A stretch of 64,000 bases of DNA, from NCBI RefSeq assembly GCF_003350205.1, contig NZ_QLLC01000001.1, positions 124,001-188,000 of the forward strand, given 5' to 3'. The notes under the pieces are model-generated. The model was not told the DNA's origin and made no database searches. It saw only the letters and a program-made list of their open reading frames with translations. Position numbers and translations under genes: made by a program. This DNA is from Brevundimonas bullata. GTDB lineage: Bacteria > Pseudomonadota > Alphaproteobacteria > Caulobacterales > Caulobacteraceae. Positions within the stretch are counted from its first letter, which is position 1. Each line of letters starts with the position of its first letter. This document shows, in pieces, positions 1 through 16,865 of the stretch.

Positions 1-1
1 C

Positions 2-136
2 CACGTCTATGCAAGAACCTCGATTTACCCCGGTCCCAACATAGAATTTTACCAGATACCGGACCGGATTCTCGATAAACTCGGCTTTAACGACACAACT
101 CAACCTTACTCATCTGCGGCTGAGCACGCAGGATGA
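2..136 (+). CDS. C-terminal end of a gene upstream of the restriction subunit, probably a type III Mod DNA methyltransferase (partial)
   Basis: An open frame enters from the left edge of the window and stops at TGA 134-136. It gives about 44 residues, ending in a serine/alanine-rich tail. The stop overlaps the ATG of the next gene (ATGA), which means tight translational coupling. Type III restriction subunits are normally co-transcribed directly after their Mod methyltransferase, so the position suggests Mod. The visible tail carries no diagnostic methyltransferase motif, so the identity is inference from context. Confidence 0.5.
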   Translation, partial: HVYARTSIYPGPNIEFYQIPDRILDKLGFNDTTQPYSSAAEHAG

Positions 137-2487
137 CAAGCATTATAGAACTTCTGCCGTTCCAAGTTCGAGCCTCTCAGCAGATCGTAAACCGTTACCT
201 GAAGCTGACGGAGGACCCCAAGCGTCCCTCCGTTCACAAAGGATGGGACGTTCCCTACTACCAAGCACTCGCGGCGCTGACAGGCGCAGGGAAAACACCG
301 ATCCTTGCCGACGCCATCTCTCAGATGCGTGCGACTACGCCAGTTGCCCCTATCGTCCTGTGGATTTCAAAGGCTAAGGCAGTCGTTGGTCAGACTTATG
401 GAAACTTCGAGCCCGGCGGCAAATACAGCCACCTGATCGAAGCCTATGAGGTGGTCTACCTCGCGGAACTTACGCCTGAGCGCATCGCGGATTCCAGCAC
501 AGCCTTCGTGGCTCTCACCACGGTGGGCACCTTCAATCAGAAGGATAAGAGCGGTGGCACTCTCAGCGTCCACAAGACAGATGATGATGCTGGCGACGGC
601 TCTCTTTGGGGCACTTTAACGGCAAGGCTTGGAACGGACGGCAAACGTAGGCCGCTCTTCGTTGTCTACGACGAGGGGCACAATCTCTCGGACCAGCAAA
701 CCGAATTGCTGCTCGAACTTGAACCAGACGCCATCCTCGTCGCGAGCGCGACGATGCGAACACCGGGTCGCCTCGGCAAGTTGATCGAGCGCCTCAAAGA
801 AGTCGGTTGGTCCGATCTCGCGCAGGACGACGACAAAACGGACGTGAAACCCTGCCTTGTCACCGCCGTAAGCAGCAAGGCTGTGGTTGATGCGGAGCTT
901 GTGAAGCAGCAAGTCGTAATCGGCGCGTCCACGTCCATTATGGAGACGATGATCGACTCTCTGATCGAGTCGATGGAAACCGCGACGGAGAAGGCCGAGC
1001 TTCTGCAAGCAGGTTTCTTGCCAAAGGCCATCTACGTCTGCCGCACCAACATCAATCAGGACGATGGTTCGACAGATGTGGTGTCGCGACCGTTCGTGGA
1101 GCGCAAGGCACCTCCGATTCTGATATGGCGCTATTTGGTGGAGCAGAAGGGCGTAAATCCGTCCGAGATCGCGGTCTACTGCGACCTGAAGCTGGATCGC
1201 ACCGCCCATCCGCCGCCGCCTGATTTCAAGCTGTTCTCAGGCGGAGAGCAGGACTTTGCCGTCTTCTCGGCGGGCAACTACCGCCATGTGATCTTCAACC
1301 TGAGCCTTCAGGAGGGTTGGGACGATCCTGCGTGCTGTTTCGCTTACATCGACAAGTCGATGGGCTCCGGCGTGCAGGTCGAGCAAGTCATCGGACGTGT
1401 GCTTCGCCAGCCGGGGGCGAAGCATTACGCCGACGCCGACCTCAACACGGCGACTTTCTTCATCCGCGTCGATGACAAGCAAGAGTTCCCTAAAATTCTG
1501 AGCATGGTTCAGGCCAAGCTTGGGGCCGAAATGCCGGAAGTGAAGGTCGAGGGTTTCAGTGACCCCAAAGACCGCCAGCGCGCCCGCCAAGACGCCAAGA
1601 AGGTTCGCACTGTCCCCGAAATCCATATCGACGCGAGCGAGGCCCTCGGCCCGCTTGCAGACCGCTTGAGCGAGGTCCACGACTATCGTCCCGACAAGGT
1701 GAACACCGCTGGCAAGGGAGAGATGGTGCGGGCCGTTCAGGAAATCGGCACGGGCCAGAAGCCCGACGTGCAGCCGGTTGAGACGCCCCACTCGAACCGC
1801 GTCACAGCCCGCTGGATCGTAAGGCGAGGGATGCAATCGCTATATCCCGAGGCTGCAAAAGCCATTGATTGGGCTGACGGTAGGTTCGACGCCTTCATTG
1901 AGATCACCAGCCCGGCGGCGGCGGCGCTGAGGCAGGATGCTGAGCAACTCGCACTCGCTTACGTCAAGAACAGTGAACTCGTCTTCGAAGAGGAAAACCC
2001 GTTCACGGTTGGTCCGGTCCTCGTAAATCCGGCGAAGGCCAAGCCATACGCGAACGCTCTCCACAGCGCGTATGACCTCAATCCGTTGGAGCACCAGATT
2101 GCGGAGGCGCTGGACGCCACCAAGCTCGACTGGGTGCGAAACCCGGTGAATGGCGGGTTCGCCATCCCCTTGCTCGATATCGGCGACAAGCGCCGCTTCT
2201 TCCCTGATTTTCTCGTTTGGAAGGACGACCTGATCTTCGCCATCGACCCGAAAGGCGGACACATTCTTGCGGGGGATGCGGGCAAGAAGATCATGAACAT
2301 ACAAGGGGATAAGGGAGAGCGGAAGCTCCTCGTGCGGTTCATCAGCGAAGGGAGATTCAATGATGACCTTCAGAAGCTTGGGTCCAATGGCCTGACTGTT
2401 TTCTCGGCGGTTAAGTCTACAGGGAAGATCAGAGCCAAGGCGGTGAACGATGCGAAGGAGGCTGTTGAAGTCGCTCTTAAATCGTAG
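133..2487 (+). CDS. Type III restriction enzyme Res-like subunit (SF2 helicase plus nuclease domain)
   Basis: The 784-residue protein is a superfamily 2 helicase/translocase with a C-terminal nuclease domain. Visible motifs are Walker A TGAGKT near residue 50, the DEGH box near 180, motif III SAT near 205, and a motif VI-like stretch QVIGRVLRQPG near 420. Near residues 690-708 PDFLVW is followed by IDPKGG, which matches the PD...(D/E)xK active-site pattern. Type III Res subunits cut DNA after ATP-driven translocation, in complex with Mod. The start overlaps the preceding stop as ATGA. It is somewhat shorter than EcoP15I Res (about 970 aa). A stand-alone DEAD/DEAH nuclease of another defence system is the alternative. 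It lies in the mobile island and reads away from its left side. Confidence 0.75.
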   Translation: MTSIIELLPFQVRASQQIVNRYLKLTEDPKRPSVHKGWDVPYYQALAALTGAGKTPILADAISQMRATTPVAPIVLWISKAKAVVGQTYGNFEPGGKYSHLIEAYEVVYLAELTPERIADSSTAFVALTTVGTFNQKDKSGGTLSVHKTDDDAGDGSLWGTLTARLGTDGKRRPLFVVYDEGHNLSDQQTELLLELEPDAILVASATMRTPGRLGKLIERLKEVGWSDLAQDDDKTDVKPCLVTAVSSKAVVDAELVKQQVVIGASTSIMETMIDSLIESMETATEKAELLQAGFLPKAIYVCRTNINQDDGSTDVVSRPFVERKAPPILIWRYLVEQKGVNPSEIAVYCDLKLDRTAHPPPPDFKLFSGGEQDFAVFSAGNYRHVIFNLSLQEGWDDPACCFAYIDKSMGSGVQVEQVIGRVLRQPGAKHYADADLNTATFFIRVDDKQEFPKILSMVQAKLGAEMPEVKVEGFSDPKDRQRARQDAKKVRTVPEIHIDASEALGPLADRLSEVHDYRPDKVNTAGKGEMVRAVQEIGTGQKPDVQPVETPHSNRVTARWIVRRGMQSLYPEAAKAIDWADGRFDAFIEITSPAAAALRQDAEQLALAYVKNSELVFEEENPFTVGPVLVNPAKAKPYANALHSAYDLNPLEHQIAEALDATKLDWVRNPVNGGFAIPLLDIGDKRRFFPDFLVWKDDLIFAIDPKGGHILAGDAGKKIMNIQGDKGERKLLVRFISEGRFNDDLQKLGSNGLTVFSAVKSTGKIRAKAVNDAKEAVEVALKS

Positions 2488-2510
2488 TCTTTTCGCCGAT
2501 AATGGAGCGG

Positions 2511-3503
2511 TCAGCCCCACTCCAACTCTCCCGTGAACCGCCTGTAGCTTTTCCAGCCGTCCCCGCCGCCAGCCTCGGTGATGCGCGGAATGCCGAGCGC
2601 GTCGCACTTCGCTTCCACCTCAGCGATCAAGGCCAGCGCGACGGGCCCATTGCGAGGTCCGTGAACGTCGCGAAACATCCAAGCCGCCCCGAGCGAAAGC
2701 GGACGAAACTCGACGAGAAGCTGGGTTTGATACTCAGCTATCGCCAGCTTCCCCGCCGCCACTTCGGAAAGTCGGTGGGAGATGCAGTTCCGATATCGAA
2801 GCCCTGCCTCCAGAAGGTCTCGCGTTGTCGAGAGCGGTCTTAGGTCGTTGTCGCCAACAGGAACTGGGTTCACCGGCAGACGATCCGCCCGGCGGATGAA
2901 GCGGTCGAGCAAGCGCGGCAACGTCGATGTGGGGCGCATCTGCGCGATAGCCTCCGCTACCGTCTCGTCAGACGCGCGCGAGCAGACCGACTGCACGAAC
3001 TCCACGGCCGCGTTGAACGTGGTCGCCTCAGCGCCGGTATCGAGCCGTTCGAGCGTATGGGTGTGATGCCAGCGCGGGTCGAGGGATGACAGGACTTCGA
3101 GCTTGCGCCGCGTGATCCGCCCCGCTCCGCGCAAGGCATCGGCCGCCCGGACATCGTTGCGCGCGAGCATCTGGAAGATGGCGAGATAGTCGGCCCGTCG
3201 GTCCAGCGGTCGCTCACCGATGCGTTCGAGCAGCCCCGGAAGACCCTCGGGGACATCACCAAAGGTCATGCGGAGGATGTCCGCGACGCGACCGTGGCGG
3301 ACGACTTCGGCGAACGACATCGGGAGGAGGTCTTCGCTCACGTCGAAAACTCCGGCCTTTACCTCATACGCTGCCAGCGCTGCGAGGATCGCTTGCCGAC
3401 GCGCAGGGGCGGCCGTGAGCACGCGCGACAGGATGCCGGGCACTTCGTCGTCGAGCTTCACCAAAGCGGCCGTGGCCCACCCCAGCAGCCCTCCCTCACG
3501 CAT
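2511..3503 (-). CDS. Hypothetical protein with a weak PcfJ-like C-terminal region
   Basis: The 330-residue protein is of unknown function. The longer frame runs to 3644, but the start at 3503 (ATGCGTGA) overlaps the stop of the upstream gene by 8 bases and is the natural coupled start; the extra N-terminal 47 residues are arginine-rich shadow sequence. A stretch near residues 235-260 (TTRDLLEAG...RYRNCIS...KLAIAEY) resembles the 'L...G..l.hCv..Y....G' pattern of PcfJ-like proteins of mobile elements, but this is a weak eye match. It forms a two-gene unit with 3496-3870 and converges on the restriction gene with only 23 bases between them. Confidence 0.6.
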   Translation of the reverse strand: MREGGLLGWATAALVKLDDEVPGILSRVLTAAPARRQAILAALAAYEVKAGVFDVSEDLLPMSFAEVVRHGRVADILRMTFGDVPEGLPGLLERIGERPLDRRADYLAIFQMLARNDVRAADALRGAGRITRRKLEVLSSLDPRWHHTHTLERLDTGAEATTFNAAVEFVQSVCSRASDETVAEAIAQMRPTSTLPRLLDRFIRRADRLPVNPVPVGDNDLRPLSTTRDLLEAGLRYRNCISHRLSEVAAGKLAIAEYQTQLLVEFRPLSLGAAWMFRDVHGPRNGPVALALIAEVEAKCDALGIPRITEAGGGDGWKSYRRFTGELEWG

Positions 3504-3870
3504 TGAAGCGCTCCCATGGGAAGCGGCCTTGACCTTGAGCGTTCGGCGCAGTCTGGAAGGCAACCCAGCGCCACTTCCGCGTCTCGCCCGGCGTCGTGGC
3601 ATGGTCGAATACGATGCGCTGCGGCGCGTTGGTAAGGTCCGCAAGGATCGCCTTGATTGCGATGGCCTCGGGGACCACGACGGGGACGGTGATTTCCCCG
3701 GCAGCTTCCGCCGGAGGGCTGATGAACAGCCACTCTGTCGTGCTGATCCATTGGTGAGGACCGGCGACGGCGTTCATGAAGAGTTCGAGTTCGAGACCGT
3801 CGATCTCGCCCGCCTCGTCAGCGACGGCGCGGACAGCCAGACATCGCAGCGGGGCTTCTTCCGGTGCCAT
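3496..3870 (-). CDS. Hypothetical protein, first gene of a two-gene unit
   Basis: The 124-residue soluble protein has no family I recognise. It has an acidic N-terminal third and a C-terminus ending WVAFQTAP...FPWERFNA. The start is well supported by an AGGAGG Shine-Dalgarno five bases upstream, and that site lies inside a 7-bp inverted repeat (3873-3894). Its stop overlaps the start of the 330-aa gene by 8 bases, so the two proteins are probably made together. No transmembrane segment or signal peptide is apparent. Confidence 0.6.
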   Translation of the reverse strand: MAPEEAPLRCLAVRAVADEAGEIDGLELELFMNAVAGPHQWISTTEWLFISPPAEAAGEITVPVVVPEAIAIKAILADLTNAPQRIVFDHATTPGETRKWRWVAFQTAPNAQGQGRFPWERFNA

Positions 3871-3872
3871 TC

Positions 3873-3894
3873 AACCTCCTATTTTGTGGAGGTT
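3873..3894 (-). promoter_or_regulatory. Inverted repeat enclosing the ribosome binding site of the 124-aa gene
   Basis: On the minus strand AACCTCC and GGAGGTT form a perfect 7-bp stem with an 8-base loop, and the 3' arm contains the AGGAGG Shine-Dalgarno of the gene starting at 3870. The hairpin would hide the ribosome binding site in the mRNA. It may be translational self-control or chance pairing of an SD with a CCTCC; the sequence alone does not decide. Confidence 0.4.
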
Positions 3895-3999
3895 TCAGCG
3901 TCTCATGCAAATTCAGCCCGTCAACCAGATCGGGGACGATGTAGGCGGTCTCTCTCGACCGTTAGGAGGTCGTTTCCCTGACCGTGGTGAACTCTGGCC

Positions 4000-4542
4000 A
4001 TGAGAAGGGGATCGAATGTCACGCGCTTCCGCCGCTGGCCGAAAGGTCGGGCCAAGGGGTCGAACGCGAAGTTCGTGGGCACCGTTATCGTCGTCGCGGG
4101 GGCGGCCTTCCTCGCCACGCTGATGTGGCCTCGTTCCGCCGATGTGGTGTCGGCCCGCGACGGCGGCGATCCGGTCTCGGCTCAAGACACGAGTTGGGCC
4201 TACGACTTCGCGTGTGAAGTGGCCTTTGTGAACGACGGCGACACCCTCCGATGTGAGGCCGGGACGCGGGTTCGGCTCCACGCCATCTCTGCGAGAGAGA
4301 CGGACGGATCGTGCTCGCCGGGACATCCATGTCCGACTGCATCTGCGTCGATGAGCACAGCGGCTTTGACCCAACTCGCCGGTCGCCGGATCACCTGCCT
4401 CCAGACTGGCACCAGCTACGAGCGCGTCACTGCGATCTGCCGAAACGCCTCCGGCGTGGAGATCAACTGCGCCATGGTGGAGCGCGGGGCGGCGGTTGTG
4501 TGGGAACGCTTCAACCGGCAACATCCCATCTGCATGAGCTAA
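4000..4542 (+). CDS. Membrane-anchored or secreted thermonuclease-like (SNase-fold) protein, cysteine-rich
   Basis: The 180-residue protein has a basic N-terminus, one hydrophobic segment (about residues 26-43) and then an SNase-like domain: FVNDGDTLRC, VRLHAISARE, SPGHPCP, YERVTAIC and a terminal HPIC. The DGDT and RLxxxxARE stretches fit the calcium/catalytic region of staphylococcal-nuclease-type domains. Eight cysteines occur in the exported part, as expected for a disulfide-rich periplasmic protein. A chromosomal relative at 57878-58342 shares the same domain and all eight cysteines. Nuclease activity is plausible but not proved: the arginine equivalent to SNase R87 cannot be placed with certainty. 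The next gene follows 10 bases downstream. Confidence 0.7.
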   Translation: MRRGSNVTRFRRWPKGRAKGSNAKFVGTVIVVAGAAFLATLMWPRSADVVSARDGGDPVSAQDTSWAYDFACEVAFVNDGDTLRCEAGTRVRLHAISARETDGSCSPGHPCPTASASMSTAALTQLAGRRITCLQTGTSYERVTAICRNASGVEINCAMVERGAAVVWERFNRQHPICMS

Positions 4543-4552
4543 GGAGGTGACC

Positions 4553-4981
4553 ATGTTCGGATCGAGGGGGAGGAAGGCCATCGAGCAAAATAGCGTCGCT
4601 GTGCTTGAAGGCTTTCACAACACGGTCGAGGACGATCTCGGAGAAATAAGTGATCGCGACGCGACGATCATGTTCGCCGGATGGCTGCATTACAGCATCG
4701 CCTTATTGGTTCAGTCTGGGCAACTAAAAGTCGGCGAGATTCCCGCCGCGCTCCAAGCTGGCGCATTGGCTGTCCGTTCAGCCGCCCCGGATCACGGGTT
4801 GGGTCATTCCTACATCGAGGTCGCGCAGAACAGAATCTTCGAAGCCATGCGTGAAGCCAATGGATCGCCGATATGGCCTTTTCTCTACCACGCTGCTGCG
4901 AGTGAAGACCTCCGAGTTTCCGAGGCAGCGTTTGCTGGAGCCTTAATGCGTGAGACCGAAGCCGTGGCGAGAATGCGATAG
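4553..4981 (+). CDS. Hypothetical protein
   Basis: The 142-residue soluble protein is mostly helical by composition and unrecognised. A strong Shine-Dalgarno (AAGGAGG, 4541-4547) sits five bases before ATG 4553, which is preferred over the GTG at 4547 that lies inside the SD. The gene starts 10 bases after the nuclease-like gene and is probably co-transcribed with it. The middle part (MFAGWLHYSIALLVQSGQ) is moderately hydrophobic but too short of charge-free length to be a clear membrane segment. Confidence 0.6.
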   Translation: MFGSRGRKAIEQNSVAVLEGFHNTVEDDLGEISDRDATIMFAGWLHYSIALLVQSGQLKVGEIPAALQAGALAVRSAAPDHGLGHSYIEVAQNRIFEAMREANGSPIWPFLYHAAASEDLRVSEAAFAGALMRETEAVARMR

Positions 4982-5058: not shown

Positions 5059-5706
5059 TCACGTCAGTTTGTGTGTGATTTTGGAGTATGCCTCGCCCCA
5101 AACTGCGGGAATGCGCGCCCACTCTTCCGGTCTGGAGGCGCGCACCAAGGGGGAGTTGTGAAGTGAGTGCCGGATAATCACACCAGTTCCCTCCAGTAGT
5201 GGTTCGGCCCGTGCAGCCTTCTTTCCGACAAGGACGACGACCTCGATGTCAGGCAGCAACTTCATCAGGTTTCGCACTTCCGCAACCCCCTCGATAAGCT
5301 CCTGCCGCGTAATCTTCCGCGTGCCGTTCCAGCCGGGCACCACATTCCACATCAGGGTGTCATCTCTTGGAATTCCAGCCGCTTGCATGAAAAGGAAGGT
5401 GGCCTCCGCAGTGGGGTCGTCGTTGTCCCTGCTGATGAAGCCAGAGCCGACCCGTCCTGATCGAGATGTCGATGTCATCGGGCCGGGCTTCTCCTTGAGG
5501 AACAGGATGCGAGAACGGATGCCGCCATCCAGCGGGTCGAAGTCTGGCACTTCAATGTTGTGTCGGACGCGGAGGTCGGCGGCGAACTTGGCGAGCGGCA
5601 TGATGTGCGGAAGATCGAGCATGGCTCGTCGAACCGCCCGCGCTTCAGGATCGCGCATCGAGCGCGGCAGGGTCGGCGGCTCGATGTTCTCAACAGGCTG
5701 ACGCAT
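5059..5706 (-). CDS. Uracil-DNA glycosylase superfamily-like protein
   Basis: The 215-residue protein has the shape of a uracil-DNA glycosylase superfamily member. FLKEKPGP stands where the family has its GEAPG motif, then GSGFISRDND and WNVVPGW follow, VVLVGKKA matches the usual late beta-strand, and HNSPLVR matches the HPSPL motif. UDG-family enzymes remove uracil or other damaged bases to leave abasic sites. The residues differ enough from the classic motifs that substrate and activity are open. Start ATG 5706 is chosen over 5739 because GGAG lies 7 bases upstream. It is divergent from 5765-6223 with 58 bases between. Confidence 0.6.
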   Translation of the reverse strand: MRQPVENIEPPTLPRSMRDPEARAVRRAMLDLPHIMPLAKFAADLRVRHNIEVPDFDPLDGGIRSRILFLKEKPGPMTSTSRSGRVGSGFISRDNDDPTAEATFLFMQAAGIPRDDTLMWNVVPGWNGTRKITRQELIEGVAEVRNLMKLLPDIEVVVLVGKKAARAEPLLEGTGVIIRHSLHNSPLVRASRPEEWARIPAVWGEAYSKITHKLT

Positions 5707-5764: not shown

Positions 5765-6223
5765 ATGACAATCGAACTGCGCGAGCGATTGGTCTCGACG
5801 GCTCTCGAATGGCAACGGCGTTTCGGCGTTGCACCGTCGATAACTTCCGCAATCTCGGAGTATGACGCAGCCGTGCTGGTCGGTGTGCCCATGAACAAGC
5901 TGGCTGAAGCAATCGGCGACGCGAGCGCGGTTCGAAAAGGGTTCGACTTTGTGTGGGAAGGCAAACGCTACCAAGTCAAAGCCAATCGACCCAGCGGCCG
6001 TCGTGGATCAACTGTGACGAAATGCGCGAAGGCTTCAAACTACGATTTCGACGTGCTGATCTGGCTGCTTTACGATCCACATTACGTCATTCAGGAAGCG
6101 TGGCGTTGGGACGCGGCGGATTACCGATCCATATGTGGTCCACTTGTGCATGTCCGTCCGCAGCATATGCGTCAGGGCACTCCCATGATGTTCGGCCACA
6201 TCAATCAGCGCGCCACCTTTTGA
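5765..6223 (+). CDS. Hypothetical protein with a probable PD-(D/E)XK-type nuclease core
   Basis: The 152-residue protein has a core GFDFVWEGKRYQVKANRP...NYDFDVLIWLLYDP that looks like a small restriction-endonuclease-like fold: D...xQVKxxR in place of the (D/E)xK strand, followed by a strand with a conserved aspartate. Similar short proteins with 'VQVK..R' cores occur as stand-alone nucleases in islands. No DNA-binding domain is obvious beyond a helical N-terminus containing a VGVPMNKLAEAIG stretch. It is divergently paired with the glycosylase-like gene. Function is inference from the motif only. Confidence 0.5.
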   Translation: MTIELRERLVSTALEWQRRFGVAPSITSAISEYDAAVLVGVPMNKLAEAIGDASAVRKGFDFVWEGKRYQVKANRPSGRRGSTVTKCAKASNYDFDVLIWLLYDPHYVIQEAWRWDAADYRSICGPLVHVRPQHMRQGTPMMFGHINQRATF

Positions 6224-6247: not shown

Positions 6248-6511
6248 TCACTTCACCTCATTCCCCGCCAGACCGAAGCCGCCTCCGATCAGACTGCCAC
6301 CCGTCACATCGACCGTCAGCCCCAGCCGCTTACGCTGCTCCGCGTAGTGGAGGCGTGCGGTGCGAGCTTCCTCCAGCACACCGGTCATTTGGTGCGACAT
6401 GTCCTCGATCTGATCGACCAACATTTCGATGCACTTCTCCTGCACATCGAGGCGCTTCTGGGCGTCATCCAAGGCGTCCGCCAACAGTGACATGATCTCG
6501 TCCTGCGTCAT
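6248..6511 (-). CDS. Small coiled-coil hypothetical protein coupled to the P-loop ATPase
   Basis: The 87-residue protein has a long heptad-like helix (about residues 5-60) and a glycine-rich end (GGSLIGGGFGLAG). Its ATG overlaps the stop of the preceding ATPase gene by four bases (ATGA at 6508-6511), so the two are translationally coupled. The helical body suggests oligomerisation or docking to the ATPase. I do not recognise the family. Confidence 0.6.
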   Translation of the reverse strand: MTQDEIMSLLADALDDAQKRLDVQEKCIEMLVDQIEDMSHQMTGVLEEARTARLHYAEQRKRLGLTVDVTGGSLIGGGFGLAGNEVK

Positions 6512-8045: not shown

Positions 8046-8231
8046 TTAGAGGATTGGCGTGACGCGCTGGAGCGTTGCTTGATCCTCGACTGCCGAGACA
8101 TTGCGCCGCGCTATGCGCGACGGCTCCACGCCTTCGATTACGGCCTCCCGGCGAAGAGCCGCTCGTCCTATCGAAGCCTTGTCGCTGAGCCGGGAACTGG
8201 ATGGGGCCGAGGAATCCGGCTCCTCCCCCAT
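8046..8231 (-). CDS. Possible small protein (61 aa), uncertain
   Basis: A minus-strand frame encodes a hydrophilic basic protein containing SRLSDKASIGRAALRREAVIEGVEPSRIARRN, which has a protein-like composition. It lies just ahead of the ATPase gene on the same strand and begins 16 bases past the perfect hairpin. There is no Shine-Dalgarno before ATG 8231, and longer versions reach back through the hairpin. It could equally be a shadow of non-coding leader DNA. Confidence 0.25.
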   Translation of the reverse strand: MGEEPDSSAPSSSRLSDKASIGRAALRREAVIEGVEPSRIARRNVSAVEDQATLQRVTPIL

Positions 8232-8246
8232 CAAAGCGAATGCATT

Positions 8247-8287
8247 GCAACAAAGAGATCGGCCACTTCCGCCGATCTCTTTGTTGC
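8247..8287. repeat. Perfect 17-bp inverted repeat with 7-base loop
   Basis: Arms at 8247-8263 and 8271-8287 are exact reverse complements around the loop CACTTCC. No T-run follows on either strand, so it is not a textbook terminator. A second hairpin, GACGCC-ATCC-GGCGTC, follows at 8292-8307. The site is 51 bases before the ATG at 8338 and could be a regulator operator, an mRNA leader structure or a small RNA. Confidence 0.7.
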
Positions 8288-8337
8288 TGGCGACGCCATC
8301 CGGCGTCGGCACCAAATGCCTTCTTCAAGTCGGTTCA

Positions 8338-9587: not shown

Positions 9588-9868
9588 GCTTCTTCCCCTG
9601 CCAGATCGAATGTCCCGTCTCTCTGACGGTTCGCTTTGGAGATCAACCGCCATGCCGTTCTCCTTGCTTGATTGCCGTCAAGTGCGAAACACGGTGCAGA
9701 TCGGTGGCGGGGTTTGGATGATCTCGAAAGGTATACTTCTGGCAGATGTCGATCAGTGGGTCTGGAAGCCTCTCGTTAATCATCAGATATGGATGACAGA
9801 CTCTCCGAATACCGTATCCTGAAATCTATCTCCGACAACGCGGGGCTTTCAGGGGTTTTCGGAAACGG
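9588..9868. other. 281-base gap between the hydrolase and the resolvase
   Basis: This gap separates divergent genes. A 56-codon plus-strand frame starts at ATG 9652 and ends at 9822, but it lacks a Shine-Dalgarno and its protein has no recognisable feature, so I do not call it. The last 60 bases are AT-richer than the surroundings and could hold the resolvase promoter or its res site. No clear dyad is seen. Confidence 0.4.
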
Positions 9869-10447
9869 ATGCTAATCGGATATTCGAGGTGCTCGGCTCG
9901 TGGGCAAAATCATGAGTCGCAGATCGACGCGCTGGAGCGGGCAGGGTGCGAGCGCATCTTCGTCGAGACCGCTTCCGGCACGCGCAGTGATCGGCCGCAG
10001 CTAACCGAGCTTCTCGACTTCGCCCGGCCCGGAGATACCGTGGTTGTCCTGCGGCTCGACCGTCTCGCCCGTGATGTCCGCCAAATCCTCGATCTCGTCG
10101 ATCAGTTCACCCGCCGCGATATCGGGCTGAAGTCATTGAGCGAGGCCATCGACAGCACCACCCCCAGCGGTCGGCTTGCGGTCCACACCTTGGCAGCGCT
10201 CGGACAGTATGAAGTCGAACAGAAACGTCTCGCCTGTGAAGCCGGGCGGAAGGCCGCGATTGCCCGTGGTCGTCTCGGTGGCCGCCCCAAGGCTATGGAC
10301 GAGACCAAGCTTAAAATCGCTAAGGCGCTGATGGCCGACGATCAGCTTTCGATGTCGGAGATCGCCCGTCAGGTGGGGGTGGCGCCGAGCACGTTGTATC
10401 GAACGGTGCCGGGTGGCCGTGCCGCATTGGGCCAGCCAGTCGCTTAG
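9869..10447 (+). CDS. Small serine recombinase (resolvase/invertase family)
   Basis: The 192-residue protein has the standard layout of Tn3/Hin-type recombinases. The N-terminal catalytic domain carries GYSRCS with the nucleophile serine 9, then Q...L..AGC, then LDRLARD (residues about 57-63), the long E helix, and a C-terminal helix-turn-helix MSEIARQVGVAPSTLYR. These enzymes resolve cointegrates or invert segments by double-strand cleavage at short dyads. It is intact and is a second serine recombinase next to the large integrase at 15179-16813. No transposase gene lies beside it, so it is either a resolvase of the island itself or a relic of an inserted element. Confidence 0.9.
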   Translation: MLIGYSRCSARGQNHESQIDALERAGCERIFVETASGTRSDRPQLTELLDFARPGDTVVVLRLDRLARDVRQILDLVDQFTRRDIGLKSLSEAIDSTTPSGRLAVHTLAALGQYEVEQKRLACEAGRKAAIARGRLGGRPKAMDETKLKIAKALMADDQLSMSEIARQVGVAPSTLYRTVPGGRAALGQPVA

Positions 10448-10863: not shown

Positions 10864-10878
10864 GTTCCCCATACGTTC
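10864..10878 (+). promoter_or_regulatory. LexA (SOS) box upstream of the umuD'-umuC genes
   Basis: The sequence GTTC-CCCATAC-GTTC matches exactly the alphaproteobacterial LexA operator GTTC-N7-GTTC known from Caulobacter and Rhodobacter. It ends five bases before the ATG at 10884, so LexA bound here would block transcription of the operon start directly. This makes the pair damage-inducible through the host LexA. Confidence 0.85.
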
Positions 10879-10883
10879 TCATT

Positions 10884-11258
10884 ATGAGCGAGAGGGCATA
10901 TCGGGGCGACGAGACGACGGGCTTCCAAAGCCCGGCACAGGATCACATCGAAGGCGTGCCCGATCTCGCCGAGCTTCTGGAGCTACGGCGACCTCAGCGA
11001 TACGCAGTCAGGGTCAAGGGCGAGGGCCTTCGAAAGCGCGGCATCCACGGCGGGGACATCCTCGTGGTGACAACCGACGCCCCGCCGATCACCGGCAAGG
11101 TCTGCGTGGCCTTCCTGCATGGCGACGTGGTGCTGGCGGTGCTGATGGAGAAGGACGGCCAATGGTGGCTGGAGCCTTCGAACCAAACGCCCCAGCCCTT
11201 GTCCGACGACACCGAGGTCTGGGCCATGATCGCCGCGCTGGTTCGGACGGATGTCTGA
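10884..11258 (+). CDS. umuD: UmuD-like S24 protein lacking catalytic residues (UmuD'-like)
   Basis: The 124-residue protein aligns by eye with UmuD from its cleavage point on: GFQSPAQD matches the start of processed UmuD', and GGDILVV matches the core. The catalytic serine position (GDSM in UmuD) reads GEGL and the catalytic lysine region (TVKKL) reads VLAVL, so both Ser and Lys are gone. Only 12 residues precede the equivalent of the cleavage site, against 24 in E. coli UmuD. The protein therefore looks like a ready-made UmuD' that needs no RecA-stimulated self-cleavage. It overlaps umuC (TGATG) and is preceded by an SOS box. Family assignment is firm; the loss of activity is inference from the missing residues. 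Confidence 0.8.
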   Translation: MSERAYRGDETTGFQSPAQDHIEGVPDLAELLELRRPQRYAVRVKGEGLRKRGIHGGDILVVTTDAPPITGKVCVAFLHGDVVLAVLMEKDGQWWLEPSNQTPQPLSDDTEVWAMIAALVRTDV

Positions 11259-12499
11259 TGTTCGGCCTAATCGACGGCAACAACTTCTACGTCTCCTGCG
11301 AGCGGGCCTTTGACCCGACGCTCATTGGCAAGCCGGTGATCGTGCTGTCGAACAACGACGGCTGCGCCATAGCGCGCTCTGCCGAGAGCAAGGCCCTCGG
11401 GATCAAGATGGGTGAGGTCTGGCACCTTTCGAAGCGGAAGCCAGAGTATCGGAACGTCATCGCGAAAAGCTCGAACTACGCTTTGTATGGCGACATGAGC
11501 CGCCGCGTTTTCGAAGTTTTGTCCGACCATTTCCAGAGGGTCGAACCCTACAGCATCGACGAGATGTTCTTGGACCTGACGCAGTTCGCCCGCGTGGACT
11601 ACTGCCGCCGCGTCCGAGATAGCGTCCGCCAGATCACCAAGATTCCAACATGCATCGGCATCGGGCCGACGAAGACGCTGGCGAAGTTGGCGAACAAGCA
11701 CGCCAAGGGCGGGCCGACCGGCGTATCTGATTTCAGTGATCTCGACGCCCGCCGTCAGGGGTTTGCCGAAATGCCAATCGGCGAAATCTGGGGCGTGGGG
11801 GGCGCCAGTCAAACGAAGCTGAACAACCTCGGCATCCATACGGTCGAGCAGTTCGCAGCGCTCCCGTCCGCCAGCGTCAGGAAACTCATGACCGTCACCG
11901 GCCAGCGGACCCATGCCGAACTCAACGGCGTGTCCTGTATGCCGCTGACCCTCGCTCCCGATCAGAAGCAAACGGTGGCGGTGACGCGGATGTTCGGGCG
12001 CCCGGTTGAGACGTGGGAGGACATGCGCGAGGCACTAGCGGCCCACGCTGCACGCGCTGCGGAGAAGTGTCGCAAGCATGGGCTGGTGGCCAATGCGATG
12101 CAGGTGTTCTTCCACACGCATCCGCACAACGGCGATCCTTGGTATCATGGCCAGCGTTCGTTTGAGATCGAGCCGACTGCGGACAGTTTCGCGATCATAG
12201 GTCAGGCCGTCGCAGCGGGCCGGTCGATGTGGAAGCCCAACACGCGCTACGCCAAGGCCGGGGTGATCCTGCTGGACCTTCAGGCAGAGGCTGATGCGCC
12301 CCGCGACCTCCTGCCGACCGTCGATCCGATCAAGTCCGAGAAGCTGATGACGGCGCTGGATTCCGTGAACGCGAAGTTTGGACGGGGGACATTGCGGCCG
12401 GGCGGGATACGCCCGGTGAAGCCGTGGTCCACGCGGGCGAACAATCGGTCACCTCGATTCACGACGCGGTTCACCGAACTGATGGAAGTGCGAGCGTAG
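11258..12499 (+). CDS. umuC: Error-prone Y-family DNA polymerase UmuC-like (Pol V catalytic subunit)
   Basis: The 413-residue translesion polymerase starts with IDGNNFYVSCERAFDP, which carries the first metal-binding aspartate and the YVSCE(R) motif of UmuC. SIDEMFLDL near residue 100 holds the catalytic Asp-Glu pair, followed by IGIGPTKTLAKLANKHAK and the helix-hairpin-helix GVGGASQTKLNNLGI. The C-terminal half is the UmuC-type little finger and tail. With two UmuD' it would form Pol V and copy across lesions with mutations. ATG 11258 overlaps the stop of the umuD-like gene, so the longer frame back to 10862 is only a shadow. It is controlled by the SOS box at 10864. Confidence 0.92.
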   Translation: MFGLIDGNNFYVSCERAFDPTLIGKPVIVLSNNDGCAIARSAESKALGIKMGEVWHLSKRKPEYRNVIAKSSNYALYGDMSRRVFEVLSDHFQRVEPYSIDEMFLDLTQFARVDYCRRVRDSVRQITKIPTCIGIGPTKTLAKLANKHAKGGPTGVSDFSDLDARRQGFAEMPIGEIWGVGGASQTKLNNLGIHTVEQFAALPSASVRKLMTVTGQRTHAELNGVSCMPLTLAPDQKQTVAVTRMFGRPVETWEDMREALAAHAARAAEKCRKHGLVANAMQVFFHTHPHNGDPWYHGQRSFEIEPTADSFAIIGQAVAAGRSMWKPNTRYAKAGVILLDLQAEADAPRDLLPTVDPIKSEKLMTALDSVNAKFGRGTLRPGGIRPVKPWSTRANNRSPRFTTRFTELMEVRA

Positions 12500-12503
12500 A
12501 CCG

Positions 12504-12716
12504 CTAGACGGGGATGATCTCGGCACAGTCGTAGAGCTTGTTTTCATCGAGCCGGGGGAACAGCGCGAAGTCGCGAACCGTCATGTCCTGAAGGGACGCA
12601 ACGAACCGGTCGAACTCCTGTTCGAAACCAAGCCTCGGGTGGATCGTCCACGAGCCGTCACGCTCGCGGGAAAAGTAGACCTCACCATCTTTCTGCAAGT
12701 CGGCGAATGTAATCAT
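12504..12716 (-). CDS. Small hypothetical protein, paralogue of 13043-13258
   Basis: The 70-residue protein has the pattern MxxFxDL...HPRxxxEQEFDRFVASL...RDFALFPRL...CAEI. The same pattern (IQPRPDCEEEFDTLVAHL...RGFAIFPKM...SAEV) is in the protein at 13043-13258, so the two are clearly related although only about a third identical. It converges on umuC with a four-base gap. No known family recognised. Confidence 0.6.
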   Translation of the reverse strand: MITFADLQKDGEVYFSRERDGSWTIHPRLGFEQEFDRFVASLQDMTVRDFALFPRLDENKLYDCAEIIPV

Positions 12717-12825: not shown

Positions 12826-13059
12826 ATGTCGTCTGAAGTAAAAAGCTTACGAGAACAATCTGTTCGCTTTCGTGCATTGTCCCGGTGGGTAACGGACGCC
12901 CAGACGCTGGCGGCTATTGAAGGGCATTGCGATGACCTAGATCGCCGTGCTGCTGGACTCGAATGTGGCGCATCTATTGCCGCCAAATCGGACGAGCCGG
13001 ACGACAACGCGGTGTCCGCGAACCTTCAGGCGGACGGCGCGATCAGTTCAGCCGCATGA
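12826..13059 (+). CDS. Small hypothetical protein between two paralogous genes
   Basis: The 77-residue protein starts at ATG 12826 after GGGAGGG. The N-terminal half is a charged helix (KSLREQSVRFRALSRWVTDAQTLAAIEGHCDDLDRRAAGLE) and the rest is acidic and alanine-rich. Its 3' end overlaps the convergent gene at 13043 by 17 bases. Similar short helical proteins in alphaproteobacterial islands are common but uncharacterised; I cannot assign a function. Confidence 0.45.
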   Translation: MSSEVKSLREQSVRFRALSRWVTDAQTLAAIEGHCDDLDRRAAGLECGASIAAKSDEPDDNAVSANLQADGAISSAA

Positions 13060-13258
13060 CCTCGGCCGACGCATAGAACCCGGCTGGCCCCATCTTCGGG
13101 AAGATGGCGAACCCGCGATCCTCAACCTCGTAGAGGTGCGCGACGAGCGTATCGAACTCTTCCTCACAGTCTGGCCGAGGTTGGATCAGGATCGCTCCTG
13201 CCAGCGGAACCACGATGTGGATGTCACTACCGGCGGCGAGATCGTCGAAAGAAACCAT
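13043..13258 (-). CDS. Small hypothetical protein, paralogue of 12504-12716
   Basis: The protein is 71 residues from ATG 13258 (a TTG three codons earlier is possible). It shares length, order of motifs and the FAIFPKM / FALFPRL signature with the product of 12504-12716, on the same strand 330 bases away. The two flank a plus-strand small gene. Function unknown; it lies directly downstream of yedK on the same strand and may be its operon partner (38-base gap). Confidence 0.55.
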   Translation of the reverse strand: MVSFDDLAAGSDIHIVVPLAGAILIQPRPDCEEEFDTLVAHLYEVEDRGFAIFPKMGPAGFYASAEVMRLN

Positions 13259-13296
13259 GGGTCGCAATATCGCAAACTGTGTTGATCGTCATCGAG

Positions 13297-13941
13297 TCAG
13301 CCGACCACGAACCGTTCTGGCCGCACCGCCGCGAACAAGTCACGAGCGTCTACGGAAGGGTTCAGCCACGCTTCCCAATTGTGCGGGTTGAGGATGACCG
13401 GCGCCCGCGTGTGATAGTCGCCCATCCATCCTTCCGATGGTCCGGTGAGGATCGTGAACGATCCGAACTCCCCCGCATCAGGAGTGATGACGCGATCCCA
13501 TAGCCCGGCGAACCATAGGAGATCGCCATCGGTCCGAGCGAAGCGGTGTTTGATCTTGGCTCCCTTACTGCCGGTCCATTCGAACCATGCGCTTGCAGGG
13601 ATGATGCAGCGGCGTTTGGCATACGCCTCACGGAAGGTGGAGGTGCCAGCGCAGGTCTCGGATCGTGCGTTGAAGGTCGAGAGCTTGAAACCGTCGTCTC
13701 TGCCCTTCTCCGTATCCTTGAGAGGCTTGCCCGACCGCCAGAAGGGCACGAGGCCCCATCGCATCCTTTCGACCACCCAGCCGTCGCTTTCCAGCCGTGC
13801 AGTGGTTTGCATGGTCGTGGGACGAACATCGTCGTCGGGCTGGAGGTTCAGGGGTGGCGTGGTGACGGGCGCGATGGTGGAGAGAGCCTCATGGATTTCG
13901 GCCCATGTGAATTTCCCGGTTGTCTCGAACCGCCCGCACAT
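13297..13941 (-). CDS. yedK: SOS response-associated peptidase YedK / HMCES-like (SRAP domain)
   Basis: The 214-residue SRAP protein starts MCGRF, so removal of Met exposes the catalytic Cys2 that forms a thiazolidine link with abasic sites. The other SRAP residues are present: NARSE near 92, WFEW near 117 and HTRAPVI near 178. YedK shields abasic sites in single-stranded DNA and prevents strand breaks. The gene starts inside the stop of the XRE regulator (TAATG), so it is co-translated with it. In the same island are a UDG-like protein, which could make abasic sites, and Pol V. Confidence 0.92.
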   Translation of the reverse strand: MCGRFETTGKFTWAEIHEALSTIAPVTTPPLNLQPDDDVRPTTMQTTARLESDGWVVERMRWGLVPFWRSGKPLKDTEKGRDDGFKLSTFNARSETCAGTSTFREAYAKRRCIIPASAWFEWTGSKGAKIKHRFARTDGDLLWFAGLWDRVITPDAGEFGSFTILTGPSEGWMGDYHTRAPVILNPHNWEAWLNPSVDARDLFAAVRPERFVVG

Positions 13942-14279
13942 TACCGCTTCACGAACTCGCGGATCATGGCGACGACCGCATCGCGTTCCGCGTCTCGAAG
14001 CTTCCCCCAGAGTTTCAGGATAGTGCGTTCAGATACGCTGCTGCCGCTTGGGTCGGGGTCATCATAGAGGTCCGCGACGCTGCACTTGAGAGCCTCGGCA
14101 ACCCTGACCATAGCAGCCGCCGACACTCGGTTGGTGCCCCGCTCATATTTCTGAACTTGCTGGAAGGTGACGCCTATTGCGTGACCAAGATCGGCCTGTG
14201 TCAGCCCGGCCTTCTCACGACGGGTGCGGACAGTCTTTCCAATTTGGAGATCGATCTCTGATGCGACGTTTGTAGGCAT
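13941..14279 (-). CDS. XRE-family transcriptional regulator
   Basis: The 112-residue protein has a Cro/CI-type helix-turn-helix (IGKTVRTRREKAGLTQADLGHAIGVTFQQVQKYERGTNRVS, about residues 12-50) followed by a short helical C-terminal domain. This layout matches alphaproteobacterial regulators of the cohort often found next to SRAP or island genes. Start ATG 14279 is chosen because the extra seven residues of the longer frame overlap a dyad (14283-14297) that could be its own operator. It is coupled to yedK by TAATG and lies 63 bases after the exonuclease gene. Confidence 0.85.
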   Translation of the reverse strand: MPTNVASEIDLQIGKTVRTRREKAGLTQADLGHAIGVTFQQVQKYERGTNRVSAAAMVRVAEALKCSVADLYDDPDPSGSSVSERTILKLWGKLRDAERDAVVAMIREFVKR

Positions 14280-14282
14280 TGT

Positions 14283-14297
14283 TCGCGTATAGCGCGA
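14283..14297. promoter_or_regulatory. Short dyad upstream of the XRE gene, possible operator
   Basis: TCGCG-TATAG-CGCGA is a perfect 5-bp inverted repeat ending three bases before the XRE start codon. Cro/CI-type regulators bind such dyads and often repress their own gene. The AT centre could also be part of a -10 box. The assignment is positional inference. Confidence 0.35.
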
Positions 14298-14342
14298 CAC
14301 TTCGGCTCAACCAATCCGCGAGTTGCGATCAGGGCCGAAGCG

Positions 14343-15077
14343 TCACGCCACGAGGAATGCAAGGTGCGGTCGTTCACTTATGCGTGCCCGAATGAACGAG
14401 GTAAGGTCAGCTTCGCTCTCCGACATCTGTTCTGGCGTGATAGCGCCACGGAAGAGTTCGTAGCGGAGCCAAACCCGGTAGGTGTTCACGACATCAGTCT
14501 CGCCGTAGTCGGCGCATTCTTGAATGCGACCTGCTCGGACGTGCTCCCAGACCTTTGAACCATCAATCCCATCGGGCTTTCCGGGCAATCCCATCATTTT
14601 GCACAGGTCATCCAGCGATGCCTTGGCGTTCGACTGGAAGCTGGCAAGTTCGTCACACAGATCGACGTGGGCCTGATCGTAGCGCTTGAAGTAGGGCCGG
14701 GAGGTCAGACCCGATGCCGCGATCCCGTTGACCATCGCCCGATATCGCAAGACAGGCAGATCGAAACCGTTTCCGTTGAAGGTGACGAGCGTCGGCCGGA
14801 GGGTGTCCACGCGGGCGGCAAAAGCCGAGATCAGATCAATCTCGGCCCGCTCCCCAATATGTGGGGCGCCGAGTGATTTGACGCGCCAGACGCCATCGAC
14901 GCGCTCGGCCACGAGGGCGGCAAGCACGGCAACCTTGTGGAGCGGAAGCTTGGGGAATTTGTCGCCAAGGATTTCGACAGCCTCATCGTCGGTGAGGGCT
15001 TCGCGGCCGTGAAGGCGGGCGAGCGTCTCCGTGCAGGGAACAGTTTCAAGGTCGAAGACGATGGCGTGCTGGCTCAA
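14343..15077 (-). CDS. 3'-5' exonuclease, DnaQ-fold, PolB-exonuclease-like
   Basis: The protein is about 244 residues. It has the DEDD exonuclease motifs: IVFDLETVP at the N-terminus (Exo I, D..E), TFNGNGFDLPVL near 114 (Exo II) and DYGETDVVNTY near 205 (Exo III, Y...D). Homologues are described as predicted exonucleases related to the exonuclease domain of family B polymerases. I chose TTG 15077 because GGAGG lies four bases before it and homologues begin right before the Exo I strand; ATG 15104 and the longer frame to 15203 are alternatives. It sits between the integrase and the XRE-yedK pair on the same strand. A proofreading or end-trimming role in repair is inference. Confidence 0.8.
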   Translation of the reverse strand: MSQHAIVFDLETVPCTETLARLHGREALTDDEAVEILGDKFPKLPLHKVAVLAALVAERVDGVWRVKSLGAPHIGERAEIDLISAFAARVDTLRPTLVTFNGNGFDLPVLRYRAMVNGIAASGLTSRPYFKRYDQAHVDLCDELASFQSNAKASLDDLCKMMGLPGKPDGIDGSKVWEHVRAGRIQECADYGETDVVNTYRVWLRYELFRGAITPEQMSESEADLTSFIRARISERPHLAFLVA

Positions 15078-15178
15078 GAGACCTCCGGGTTGGGAAGGGG
15101 GCATTGTCGCCCAAAGAATCGTTATGTCATCCAGATTTCTACTACTGCCGTCTCGCCATTTGCTCCCCCGACACGACT

Positions 15179-16813
15179 CTAAATCATCGTGGTTTTCGTC
15201 CAAGTGGCGCTCATTTCAAGTTCTTTGCGGGTGATCGGCCGCCTATCTTCGACGTCGAGTTCAGCGTAAATTTCATCGTTAACGAACCAGCCTTTGCCGT
15301 TTGACAGAATGTAGAGGCCACCTTCGACTGGCATGATCGTGTCATAGAGCGCCAAAAGAATTGCATTCGCCTTCGCCCGGTTTCGGTAGATGTCTTCGGT
15401 GTCTTCGTCGCGAAGGCTATCCATCCATTTCGCCGCCTCTTCGACCGCATCAACACCAACCATCCGGGTCTGGTGTTTCAGCATGGTCCGAAGGTCTTCG
15501 ATCAATTTGTCCAGTTTGGACGCTTCGGCTTGGCGTTCAGCCAAGCGGATGCGCGTCGAACTGACGTCCTCGCCTCGTTCGGCAGCTTCGATGGTATCAT
15601 TGAGGTTGTCGATCTTGACCTGAATGGCACGGCGAGCGGACAGCTTGTGCGTCAGGTCCGTTTGATCTGGTAGGGGTTGAGCCGCTTCCATCCGGGCTTC
15701 CATAAGGAAAACGGTCAGCCATTCTTCGACATCAGAACACAGGTAGGTCTGACGGTTGTCGCAGTTCTGTTTGCGGTTGGCCTGATAGCATCGGAAGGAT
15801 CGGACACGGGCCGAGTTCGGGTGGTTCGTGACGACGAGCGTCCCGCCGCATGCCTCACATTTACCCATCCCCATGATAAGGTTTGGGAACCGCTTCCCTC
15901 TACGACCTGCGCCTCCTCCACGTTTGTTTCGCAAGGCGATCATCGCCTGCGCGCGGTCGAAGGTCTCTTCGTCAACGACCTTCGGATAATAGTTAGGGAT
16001 CGGGTCACCGTCAGGCTGGCGAAGCATCCGCTTATGCGCGCGCTGGCTGGTTAGGGTCGGTTGATAGAACCCCATTACCGAGGGTGACCGGAGGATGGTG
16101 AGGACATAGCCTTGATGCCAGCCGTCCGATCCGGCGACGAAGGGTTCCACCTTGTTGGCGTTCAGCCGTTGGGCGATGGCCGTGATCCCAAGCCCGTCGA
16201 TGCACTCGGCGAAGATGCCCCGGATGATGTCGGCCCGGTCGCCGATCAGGTCAAAGTGCTTGGTCCGCTCGTTGAAGACGGTCCACGCCGGTCCACGGCG
16301 GGAGAGCTTCTTACCGGTTAGGCGAGCTTCCTCACGCTTCTCAGCCCAAGCCTTTGCGACTTTACGGGTCCGTTCCTTATTCTCGTTGTGGGAGTTGGAC
16401 ATCGTGAACAACGCCCGCATCAGTTCAAGGGACGTCGAGTGTTTGTGGTAAACCTCGCCATCGACCAGAGTGACGACGTTGACGCCTTTCCGAATAATCG
16501 ACGTCAGAAGGTGAAGGGCTTCGCTCTCGATCTCGCGGGTCAGTCGCGAGAATTCATCGACAAGAAGGTAATCGCCCGACCGGATGGTCCCGGCCTCTAT
16601 CATGTTCAAAAGAACGCCGAGCTTGCCCGTCTCGCGATGAAGACCGACCGACGCTGATATCCCGCGATCCACAAACGTAGGGTCAAACTCGATGTCGGGA
16701 TGCTCTTCAGCCCATTCGAGCGCCGCTGCTAACTGGCGCCGTAGACCGTCGCCCTTCAATTGCGCGCGGGTGCTGATTCGGCTGTAGGCGTAGGCTGTTG
16801 GCTTCTTAACCAT
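15179..16813 (-). CDS. Large serine recombinase (site-specific integrase of the island)
   Basis: The 544-residue protein has the full large-serine-integrase layout. The N-terminal catalytic domain has AYSRIS with nucleophile serine 14 and the DEFSRLTRE stretch (about residues 86-94). A recombinase domain covers about 165-290, and a zinc beta-ribbon has CEACGG near 320 and further cysteines near 343 and 351. A coiled-coil region covers about 370-450. Such enzymes insert and excise elements at single attP/attB sites. Its start faces the chromosome junction, where the DUF72 gene is cut in two only 40 bases away, which fits an integrase at the edge of its own element. A dyad (16816-16834) lies just upstream of the start. 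Confidence 0.95.
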   Translation of the reverse strand: MVKKPTAYAYSRISTRAQLKGDGLRRQLAAALEWAEEHPDIEFDPTFVDRGISASVGLHRETGKLGVLLNMIEAGTIRSGDYLLVDEFSRLTREIESEALHLLTSIIRKGVNVVTLVDGEVYHKHSTSLELMRALFTMSNSHNENKERTRKVAKAWAEKREEARLTGKKLSRRGPAWTVFNERTKHFDLIGDRADIIRGIFAECIDGLGITAIAQRLNANKVEPFVAGSDGWHQGYVLTILRSPSVMGFYQPTLTSQRAHKRMLRQPDGDPIPNYYPKVVDEETFDRAQAMIALRNKRGGGAGRRGKRFPNLIMGMGKCEACGGTLVVTNHPNSARVRSFRCYQANRKQNCDNRQTYLCSDVEEWLTVFLMEARMEAAQPLPDQTDLTHKLSARRAIQVKIDNLNDTIEAAERGEDVSSTRIRLAERQAEASKLDKLIEDLRTMLKHQTRMVGVDAVEEAAKWMDSLRDEDTEDIYRNRAKANAILLALYDTIMPVEGGLYILSNGKGWFVNDEIYAELDVEDRRPITRKELEMSATWTKTTMI

Positions 16814-16815
16814 AC

Positions 16816-16834
16816 TCGCTCATACCACGAGCGA
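16816..16834. repeat. Dyad next to the integrase start and the element junction
   Basis: TCGCTC and GAGCGA form a 6-bp inverted repeat around ATACCAC. It lies between the integrase ATG and the broken DUF72 gene. Attachment sites of large serine integrases are imperfect dyads of about 50 bp beside the integrase gene, so this could be an arm of the attachment site or an autoregulatory operator. The left junction is outside the window, so it cannot be tested here. Confidence 0.4.
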
Positions 16835-16839
16835 AATAA

Positions 16840-16865
16840 TAGTCATCCATGTTATGGGCACCAAG
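16840..16865. other. Probable right junction (attR/attL) of the integrated island
   Basis: Codons from ACC AAG AAG (16860 on) read as native DUF72 protein (TKKFDAEDF), while the bases before about 16,853 do not continue that protein and belong to the integrase leader. The crossover therefore lies close to 16,850-16,862. The exact two-base core cannot be fixed without the other junction. Confidence 0.55.

Follow-up and report, generated by a model that had tools for sequence, protein, structure and literature searches.

A restriction-carrying serine-integrase island of Brevundimonas bullata with a conserved frame of Pol V, SRAP and exonuclease genes

Operons resembling umuDC border the anti-defence islands of plasmid leading regions, where their role is unclear (Samuel et al. 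2024, PMC11541004). SRAP genes adjoining UmuCD have already been described (Aravind et al. 2013, PMC3765255), in a text from which the word "exonuclease" is absent. Of the anti-phage glycosylases, Brig1 reads the base, a modified cytosine, with Glu147, and Brig3 places residue 127 in its 5-hydroxymethylcytosine (5hmC) pocket (PMC11078745, PMC13160076). It is a standing question why umuDC is so common on mobile elements, and the element family described here bears on it. The window, a stretch of 64,000 nucleotides from Brevundimonas bullata, covers positions 124001-188000 of contig NZ_QLLC01000001.1 (C1) in a 3.4-Mb genome and includes most of an integrated element that encodes a restriction-modification (R-M) system, DNA polymerase V (Pol V), a SRAP protein, a 3'-5' exonuclease (exo) and a protein resembling uracil-DNA glycosylase (UDG). 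The reading that we favour, with modest confidence and from gene content, is that of a restriction-carrying island in which Pol V, SRAP and exo would aid survival of the element at entry and in hosts under SOS stress, the UDG being accessory.

Borders and insertion site

The features that define the element are as follows; positions are those of the window unless prefixed.
1-16856: integrated element, the right 73% of which lies inside the window; left end at about -6305 (C1:117695); DUF72 gene split, with an ATG core at both junctions
C1:117353-117703: 5' half of the DUF72 gene, profile positions 1-90, 23 kb left of the 3' half
15179-16813, minus strand: large serine recombinase (LSR), the integrase, with Resolvase, Recombinase and Zn_ribbon_recom domains, the zinc ribbon just below cut-off
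16854-16856: attR core ATG, right junction
16854-17264, plus strand: 3' half of the DUF72 gene, profile positions 94-216

When rejoined, the two DUF72 halves align in one frame and along their whole length with single intact genes of 14 Brevundimonas relatives, in which attB is CAGTTCATGGGCACC or close to it. The left junction here is CAGTTCATG/ACATG and the right junction GTTATG/GGCACC. The uninterrupted attB of the relatives and the ATG at both junctions thus give the element a true length of 23,159 bp, its bounds being the core ATGs at C1:117695 and C1:140854. A preliminary description of the same DNA had placed a mobile island at 1-16860; its right end was nearly correct, and its left end was wrong, as the element begins 6.3 kb left of the window. 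Mobility itself is upheld by the LSR, the split DUF72 target, the short core and the empty sites in relatives. The LSR gene adjoins the 3' half of the DUF72 gene, and its product is the predicted agent of insertion at one position of that gene. The GC content of about 57-63% in the island, as compared with 64-72% to its right, fits acquired DNA, as expected.

Pol V, SRAP and exonuclease genes

The right part of the element carries the genes on which the favoured reading centres.
10864-10878, plus: SOS (LexA) box GTTC-N7-GTTC
10884-11258, plus: UmuD'-like subunit; Peptidase_S24 3.7e-13; lacks the cleavage site and the catalytic Ser/Lys
11258-12499, plus: UmuC, catalytic subunit of Pol V; IMS 5.8e-34, IMS_HHH, IMS_C and DUF4113
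12504-12716, minus: h70, small protein, a paralogue of h74 (34% identity)
13043-13258, minus: h74, small conserved protein
13297-13941, minus: SRAP (YedK/HMCES family), 2.1e-45; Cys2, Asn, Glu and His motifs
13941-14300, minus: XRE regulator, with a stop/start overlap with SRAP
14343-15077, minus: exo, a PF10108 PolB-type 3'-5' exonuclease, 1.5e-54; DEDD-type acids

The SOS box, GTTCCCCATACGTTC, lies 5 bp ahead of the umuD ATG, and a perfect GTTC-N7-GTTC box, or its reverse complement, stands directly before umuD in 11 of 13 homologues. Four SOS-type boxes were found in the window where 1.9 were expected, a count not clearly over chance; the umuD box is convincing because of its position and conservation and not because of that count. 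The box that the preliminary description had assigned to the umuD'-umuC pair is therefore genuine. SOS control of the whole island was considered and rejected, the boxes at 3772 and 5930 lying inside coding genes at chance level.

In all ten aligned UmuD homologues Cys-Gly is replaced by Thr-Gly and Ser60 by Gly, and Lys97 is missing; the E. coli UmuD sequence used in this comparison is consistent with the PDB alignment. The island protein starts 11 residues before the cleavage point and aligns to solved UmuD from residue 24-25, which is that point. The Y-family domains of a UmuC adjoining UmuD, as in Pol V (UmuD'2C), are thus present and the self-cleavage residues of UmuD are absent, and the island UmuD is accordingly a natural UmuD' form needing no processing. 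The active-site motifs of SRAP (MCGRF start, FNAR, FEW, HTRAP) and the acidic motifs of exo (DLET, GFDLPVL, ETDVVNTY) are kept.

The genes for LSR, exo, XRE, SRAP and h74 form a minus-strand series in which neighbours are separated by no more than about 100 bp, and they are probably co-transcribed. At seven of ten loci in the genus exo lies no more than about 1.3 kb from an LSR gene. Five further Brevundimonas loci, with an exo 60-64% identical, all have another LSR (26-31% identical) about 0.4-1.1 kb away. These arrangements make the exonuclease a likely companion of the serine integrases of Brevundimonas, an association of which a limited literature search found no description. The five loci (L092-L096, in genomes G334, G002, G282, G222 and G335) differ in their sites, L096 lying at a DUF72 gene and two others at a radC-like gene; a 155-aa partner accompanies the PF10108 exonuclease in the four of these loci shown.

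Plasmid-borne umuDC homologues commonly give tolerance of UV light and mutagens. Pol V, SRAP and exo could accordingly be cargo of benefit to the host, as proposed for mucAB and rulAB, with no role in establishment. The occurrence of umuDC in several different islands is in line with this explanation, yet SRAP and exo come immediately after the integrase gene, in its orientation, and exo accompanies serine integrases even at loci that lack umuDC. We regard pure host benefit as a tentative alternative, on the unlikely side.

Conserved frame, exchangeable cargo and the UDG-like protein

The 6.3 kb left of the window hold a MarR-like regulator, a 907-aa methyltransferase, a 137-aa partner and type III mod. 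These and the remaining genes of the island are listed below.
L004:12580-15303 (C1:118580-121303): 907-aa fusion methyltransferase with two N6/N4 and one C5 methyltransferase domains
L004:16130-18136 (from C1:122130; 3' end at 1-136), plus: mod, type III R-M methyltransferase; N6_N4_Mtase 1.5e-34; PADLOC MTase_III 2e-70
133-2487, plus: res, type III R-M, 784 aa; ResIII 3.9e-6; PADLOC REase_III 5.3e-7 (weak); overlaps the mod stop
2511-3503, minus: pcfJ-like, 330 aa, named by resemblance, with no Pfam match; present at about 50% identity or more in 14 of 131 Brevundimonas genomes
3496-3870, minus: h124, conserved partner of pcfJ, with a conserved leader
4000-4542, plus: SNase-like protein with an N-terminal hydrophobic segment; one catalytic Asp replaced
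4547-4981, plus: hypothetical protein, 144 aa; open reading frame only, no family match
5059-5706, minus: UDG-superfamily glycosylase-like protein, 215 aa, accessory
5765-6223, plus: small possible PD-(D/E)XK nuclease, 152 aa, divergent to UDG; PADLOC mREase_II 1.3e-5
6248-6511, minus: h87, small ATPase partner, 82-91% identical in G168 and G151
6508-7890, minus: P-loop, SF2-helicase-like ATPase; Walker A GCGAGKT, Walker B IIDEDP; related to phrog_2467
8101-8721, plus: h206, conserved hypothetical protein
8733-9653, minus: alpha/beta hydrolase (cargo); Hydrolase_4 1.2e-11
9869-10447, plus: small serine resolvase/invertase, 96-98% identical in sister elements

The mod and res genes are adjacent and each has its family domain, although the res match is weak, and they place the R-M system in type III. 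This system, the island's largest cargo, and the triple methyltransferase were overlooked in the preliminary description. The triple methyltransferase has no adjacent cognate nuclease; relatives of it occur in several sister elements.

G151 (B. huaxiensis) and G312 each have an element inserted at the same base of the DUF72 gene, with an LSR 47-48% identical to that of the B. bullata element. The complete G312 element begins, between its DUF72 halves, with LSR, a multi-domain methyltransferase, a 956-aa helicase of SNF2 type (by sequence) and type III mod and res, and continues with pcfJ, h124, the SNase-like gene, the resolvase, umuD, umuC, SRAP and exo. In G151 the order is DUF72 half, LSR, exo, SRAP, umuC, umuD, resolvase, h206, ATPase and h87, followed by the end of the contig. 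The neighbours exo, SRAP and umuCD thus stand in the same order in this element (G000), G151 and G312, and G314 retains a remnant (exo-XRE-SRAP-h74-partial umuC) that is 92-97% identical. The closest named carriers of island genes are B. huaxiensis and B. vesicularis. The R-M slot holds a type III system here and in G312 and G168, and a type IIG system in G228. In B. vesicularis (G168) and others, the umuDC or the h124-pcfJ part of the island is combined with different R-M systems. Two of these are of type III, one accompanied by a GajB-like helicase of UvrD type and the other by a DrmD-like helicase, and a further one is of type IIG. Judged by these gene orders, the island consists of a conserved frame and exchangeable cargo, with different R-M systems filling the slot in different elements.

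Co-occurrence was assessed by hypergeometric tests over the 131 Brevundimonas genomes, with 14 carriers of pcfJ, 6 of UDG, 11 of umuC (at least 75% identity), 6 of SRAP (at least 70%) and 10 of exo (at least 60%). SRAP is found with umuC in five of its six genomes (P = 9e-6) and with exo in four (P = 2.5e-4), and all four close SRAP relatives in the genus adjoin exo and umuC. The pair umuC and pcfJ occurs in seven genomes (P = 8e-6). UDG accompanies pcfJ in four of its six genomes (P = 1e-3), umuC in two (P = 0.08), one of them with the genes on different contigs, and SRAP in one (P = 0.25); only in this island does it share a locus with SRAP or umuC (1/6). The genomes are related and not independent, so that these P values are optimistic and serve as a guide only, and the exact gene order shared at one attB carries more weight. 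There are thus two linkage groups, exo-SRAP-umuD'C and h124-pcfJ(-UDG), which overlap via umuC, with UDG in the second. The association of repair genes proposed in the preliminary description therefore exceeds chance for exo, SRAP and umuD'C and does not for UDG. UDG was also rejected as a backbone gene, being present in 6/131 genomes and in variable contexts.

The sporadic occurrence of UDG, the 152-aa nuclease and the hydrolase is what accidental accretion in a defence island would produce. Accretion of the whole set is very improbable in view of the exo-SRAP-umuCD order, which three species share at one attB and a remnant still shows, and of the P values that link SRAP to umuC and to exo.

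The UDG-like protein matches PF03167 at 2.2e-5 (score 25.0, gathering threshold 24.3). Its AlphaFold model (pLDDT 83) has best PDB matches that are all UDGs (E 8.6e-6), the closest being UdgX and family 4 UDGs (TM about 0.5-0.6, 17-22% identity); these matches come from the fold search, the sequence profile having found nothing below 0.04 in PDB. Conserved residues comprise the EKPGP motif, E72, F90, W120-N121 and H183. From its spacing, Asn121 is the predicted base-reading residue, the same as in family 4 enzymes specific for uracil. The covalent His of the UdgX KRRIH loop presumably corresponds to Thr131 here (GTRKIT). No UDG homologues were found in phage records.

The preliminary description had joined these proteins in one pathway, a portable damage-tolerance or mutator system in which abasic sites made by the UDG are capped by SRAP and bypassed by Pol V. 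The three proteins are encoded within 9 kb, the SRAP active-site motifs are present, UmuD'C looks intact, and a Cupriavidus plasmid has a 49%-identical UDG with a SRAP-family gene about 5 kb away and a gene for an error-prone polymerase 10 kb away. Set against this are the chance-level association of UDG with SRAP, the restriction of a common locus to this island, the failure to find shared regulation of UDG with the remaining genes, and the sister elements: in the sequence seen, UDG is absent from G312 (complete) and G151 (cut by the contig end), both of which keep SRAP, Pol V and exo. The single abasic-site system is consequently not sustained, and we consider it very improbable.

A further explanation concerns the UDG alone and is compatible with the favoured reading of the island, namely that it is an anti-phage glycosylase similar to Brig1-3, one defence gene among others, which would remove a modified phage base and stop replication. 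Several relatives (48-57% identity) adjoin a type I R-M operon (L076), a methyltransferase/helicase/GIY-YIG set, a set of ADP-ribosylglycohydrolase, SIR2 and DUF87 genes, or sirtuin-like and serine recombinase genes. ADP-ribosylglycohydrolase neighbours have been described for Brig1 and Brig3 (PMC11078745, PMC13160076), and in Brevundimonas the UDG is associated with the h124-pcfJ frame that bears R-M systems (P = 0.001). On the other hand, the predicted base reader is Asn121, as opposed to Glu147 of Brig1 and the 5hmC-pocket residue 127 of Brig3; no defence gene is visible beside the close relatives in L011 and G084, and metabolic genes adjoin more distant relatives; and the protein has no PADLOC match, its likeness to Brig being judged from published descriptions rather than by sequence comparison. 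Such a function is a serious possibility that falls somewhat short of even. On Paracoccus pPZ02 (L010:10966-12621) a UDG relative directly follows an ADP-ribosylglycohydrolase gene, with SIR2/DUF87 nearby, an arrangement that resembles the published Brig3-BapA. Taken together, the neighbourhoods of the family, often near restriction or defence genes, make a defence role plausible for this accessory protein; its target would more likely be foreign or modified DNA, or uracil in DNA, and a first step ahead of SRAP and Pol V is the less likely role.

Other gene assignments of the preliminary description fared unevenly. Profiles, motifs or fold bear out umuD'-umuC, SRAP (yedK), the 3'-5' exonuclease, the UDG-superfamily protein and the P-loop protein. 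The SNase-like label is weak: the protein has no Pfam match and only phrog matches to families of unknown function, and the catalytic set Asp/Arg/Asp/Glu/Arg is incomplete, the second Asp being Ser or Ala in 6/6 island homologues. The PD-(D/E)XK-like label, too, is weak and relies on the PADLOC match to a methyl-directed restriction enzyme (1.3e-5); this gene occurs only in this element and has no homologue at the other loci compared. In genome G581 (L102:1446-2710) a PF10108 exonuclease gene stands immediately before a gene of the SNase family that has the usual GIDAPE motif, and the island likewise has exo and an SNase-like gene. The P-loop ATPase, whose relative phrog_2467 is a phage family of unknown function, changes rapidly from one element to another (22-53% identity to several). 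It was rejected as a family-defining gene, with two named matches in 84,980 genomes, one viral contig (33%) and absence from G312; its AlphaFold model (pLDDT 51) was discarded. The h124-pcfJ leader is strongly conserved (window 3871-3935 and 13 homologous leaders), with a -35-like TTGACG some 50-55 bp upstream; a CCTCC...GGAGG hairpin would mask the Shine-Dalgarno sequence, and in one homologue the stem is preserved by the compensatory pair CTTCC/GGAAG. This leader suggests translational control. Elsewhere in the window, 57553-57784 holds a tandem pair of tRNA-Ala(ggc) genes.

Proposed role and comparison with known systems

In the favoured reading, a frame of the LSR-exo-XRE-SRAP cluster, LexA-controlled ready-made UmuD'C and the stand-alone multi-domain methyltransferase would act as follows. 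The methyltransferase may shield the incoming element against host restriction. Damage on entry, which is assumed here, or single strands would elicit the SOS response; LexA would leave its box, and UmuD'C would be made already active, with no RecA-assisted cleavage. Pol V could then copy past lesions on both element and host DNA, SRAP would cap abasic sites within single strands, and the exonuclease would trim or proofread 3' ends. Once integrated, the island may repay the host with its restriction system. A stricter version, in which integrase-linked exo, SRAP and pre-processed Pol V are co-adapted as a single module for the establishment of serine-integrase islands, one that rescues damaged incoming DNA and briefly raises host mutation on entry, is possible and rather unlikely; exo would there edit or trim for a cleavage-independent Pol V, with SRAP as the abasic-site cap.

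Several observations weigh against the favoured reading, beyond the optimism of the P values. No relaxase, mating-pair/secretion or phage structural genes were recognised among the family-matched genes of the island, several of its genes being without a family; damage on entry is hence an assumption. The search for boxes in the window found no SOS box ahead of LSR, exo, XRE or SRAP, and shared regulation with umuDC is therefore not supported. In addition, umuDC often occurs with h124-pcfJ and without SRAP or exo (G078, G189, G195), so that the triad is not obligate.

These elements are small, bounded and site-specific. Their Pol V/SRAP/exo frame is constant while the restriction cargo varies, and empty attB sites and presence/absence pairs are available. 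With such natural pairs, the choice between entry repair, host tolerance and mutation supply becomes testable. The UDG clade is a candidate base-excision defence with a predicted pocket of the uracil/thymine type.

Mobile umuDC and SRAP-umuDC neighbourhoods are known already; a new variation on them is the serine-integrase island in which the R-M slot is exchangeable, UmuD' is non-cleavable and an exonuclease is linked. A literature search on serine elements at DUF72 sites and on SRAP in leading regions found nothing pertinent. With the leading-region anti-defence islands (PMC11541004) the element shares a stand-alone methyltransferase and umuDC at the island border; in contrast to them it is chromosomal, has a serine integrase and no recognised oriT or relaxase, and carries a full R-M system instead of anti-restriction proteins. 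On its family-matched genes it does not qualify as an integrative and conjugative element, although a novel relaxase may be among the genes without a family. Compared with the UmuCD-SRAP neighbourhoods (PMC3765255), it adds the PF10108 exonuclease, XRE, the integrase and the non-cleavable UmuD'. The UDG has UdgX and family 4 enzymes as its best structural matches, yet at the low identity given above. It resembles Brig1 and Brig3 in fold and, for some relatives, in the ADP-ribosylglycohydrolase and defence-island neighbourhood, and is set apart from their published descriptions by Asn at the putative base-reading position. Like mucAB, rumAB and rulAB, the island carries a LexA-controlled mobile Pol V; unlike them, its UmuD is already in the UmuD' form and lacks the self-cleavage residues. 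Finally, it agrees with serine-integrase islands in having an LSR at one end, a short core and an attB reused by related elements, and differs from them in its exchangeable R-M slot, its Pol V/SRAP/exo frame and the lack of recognised transfer or phage structural genes.

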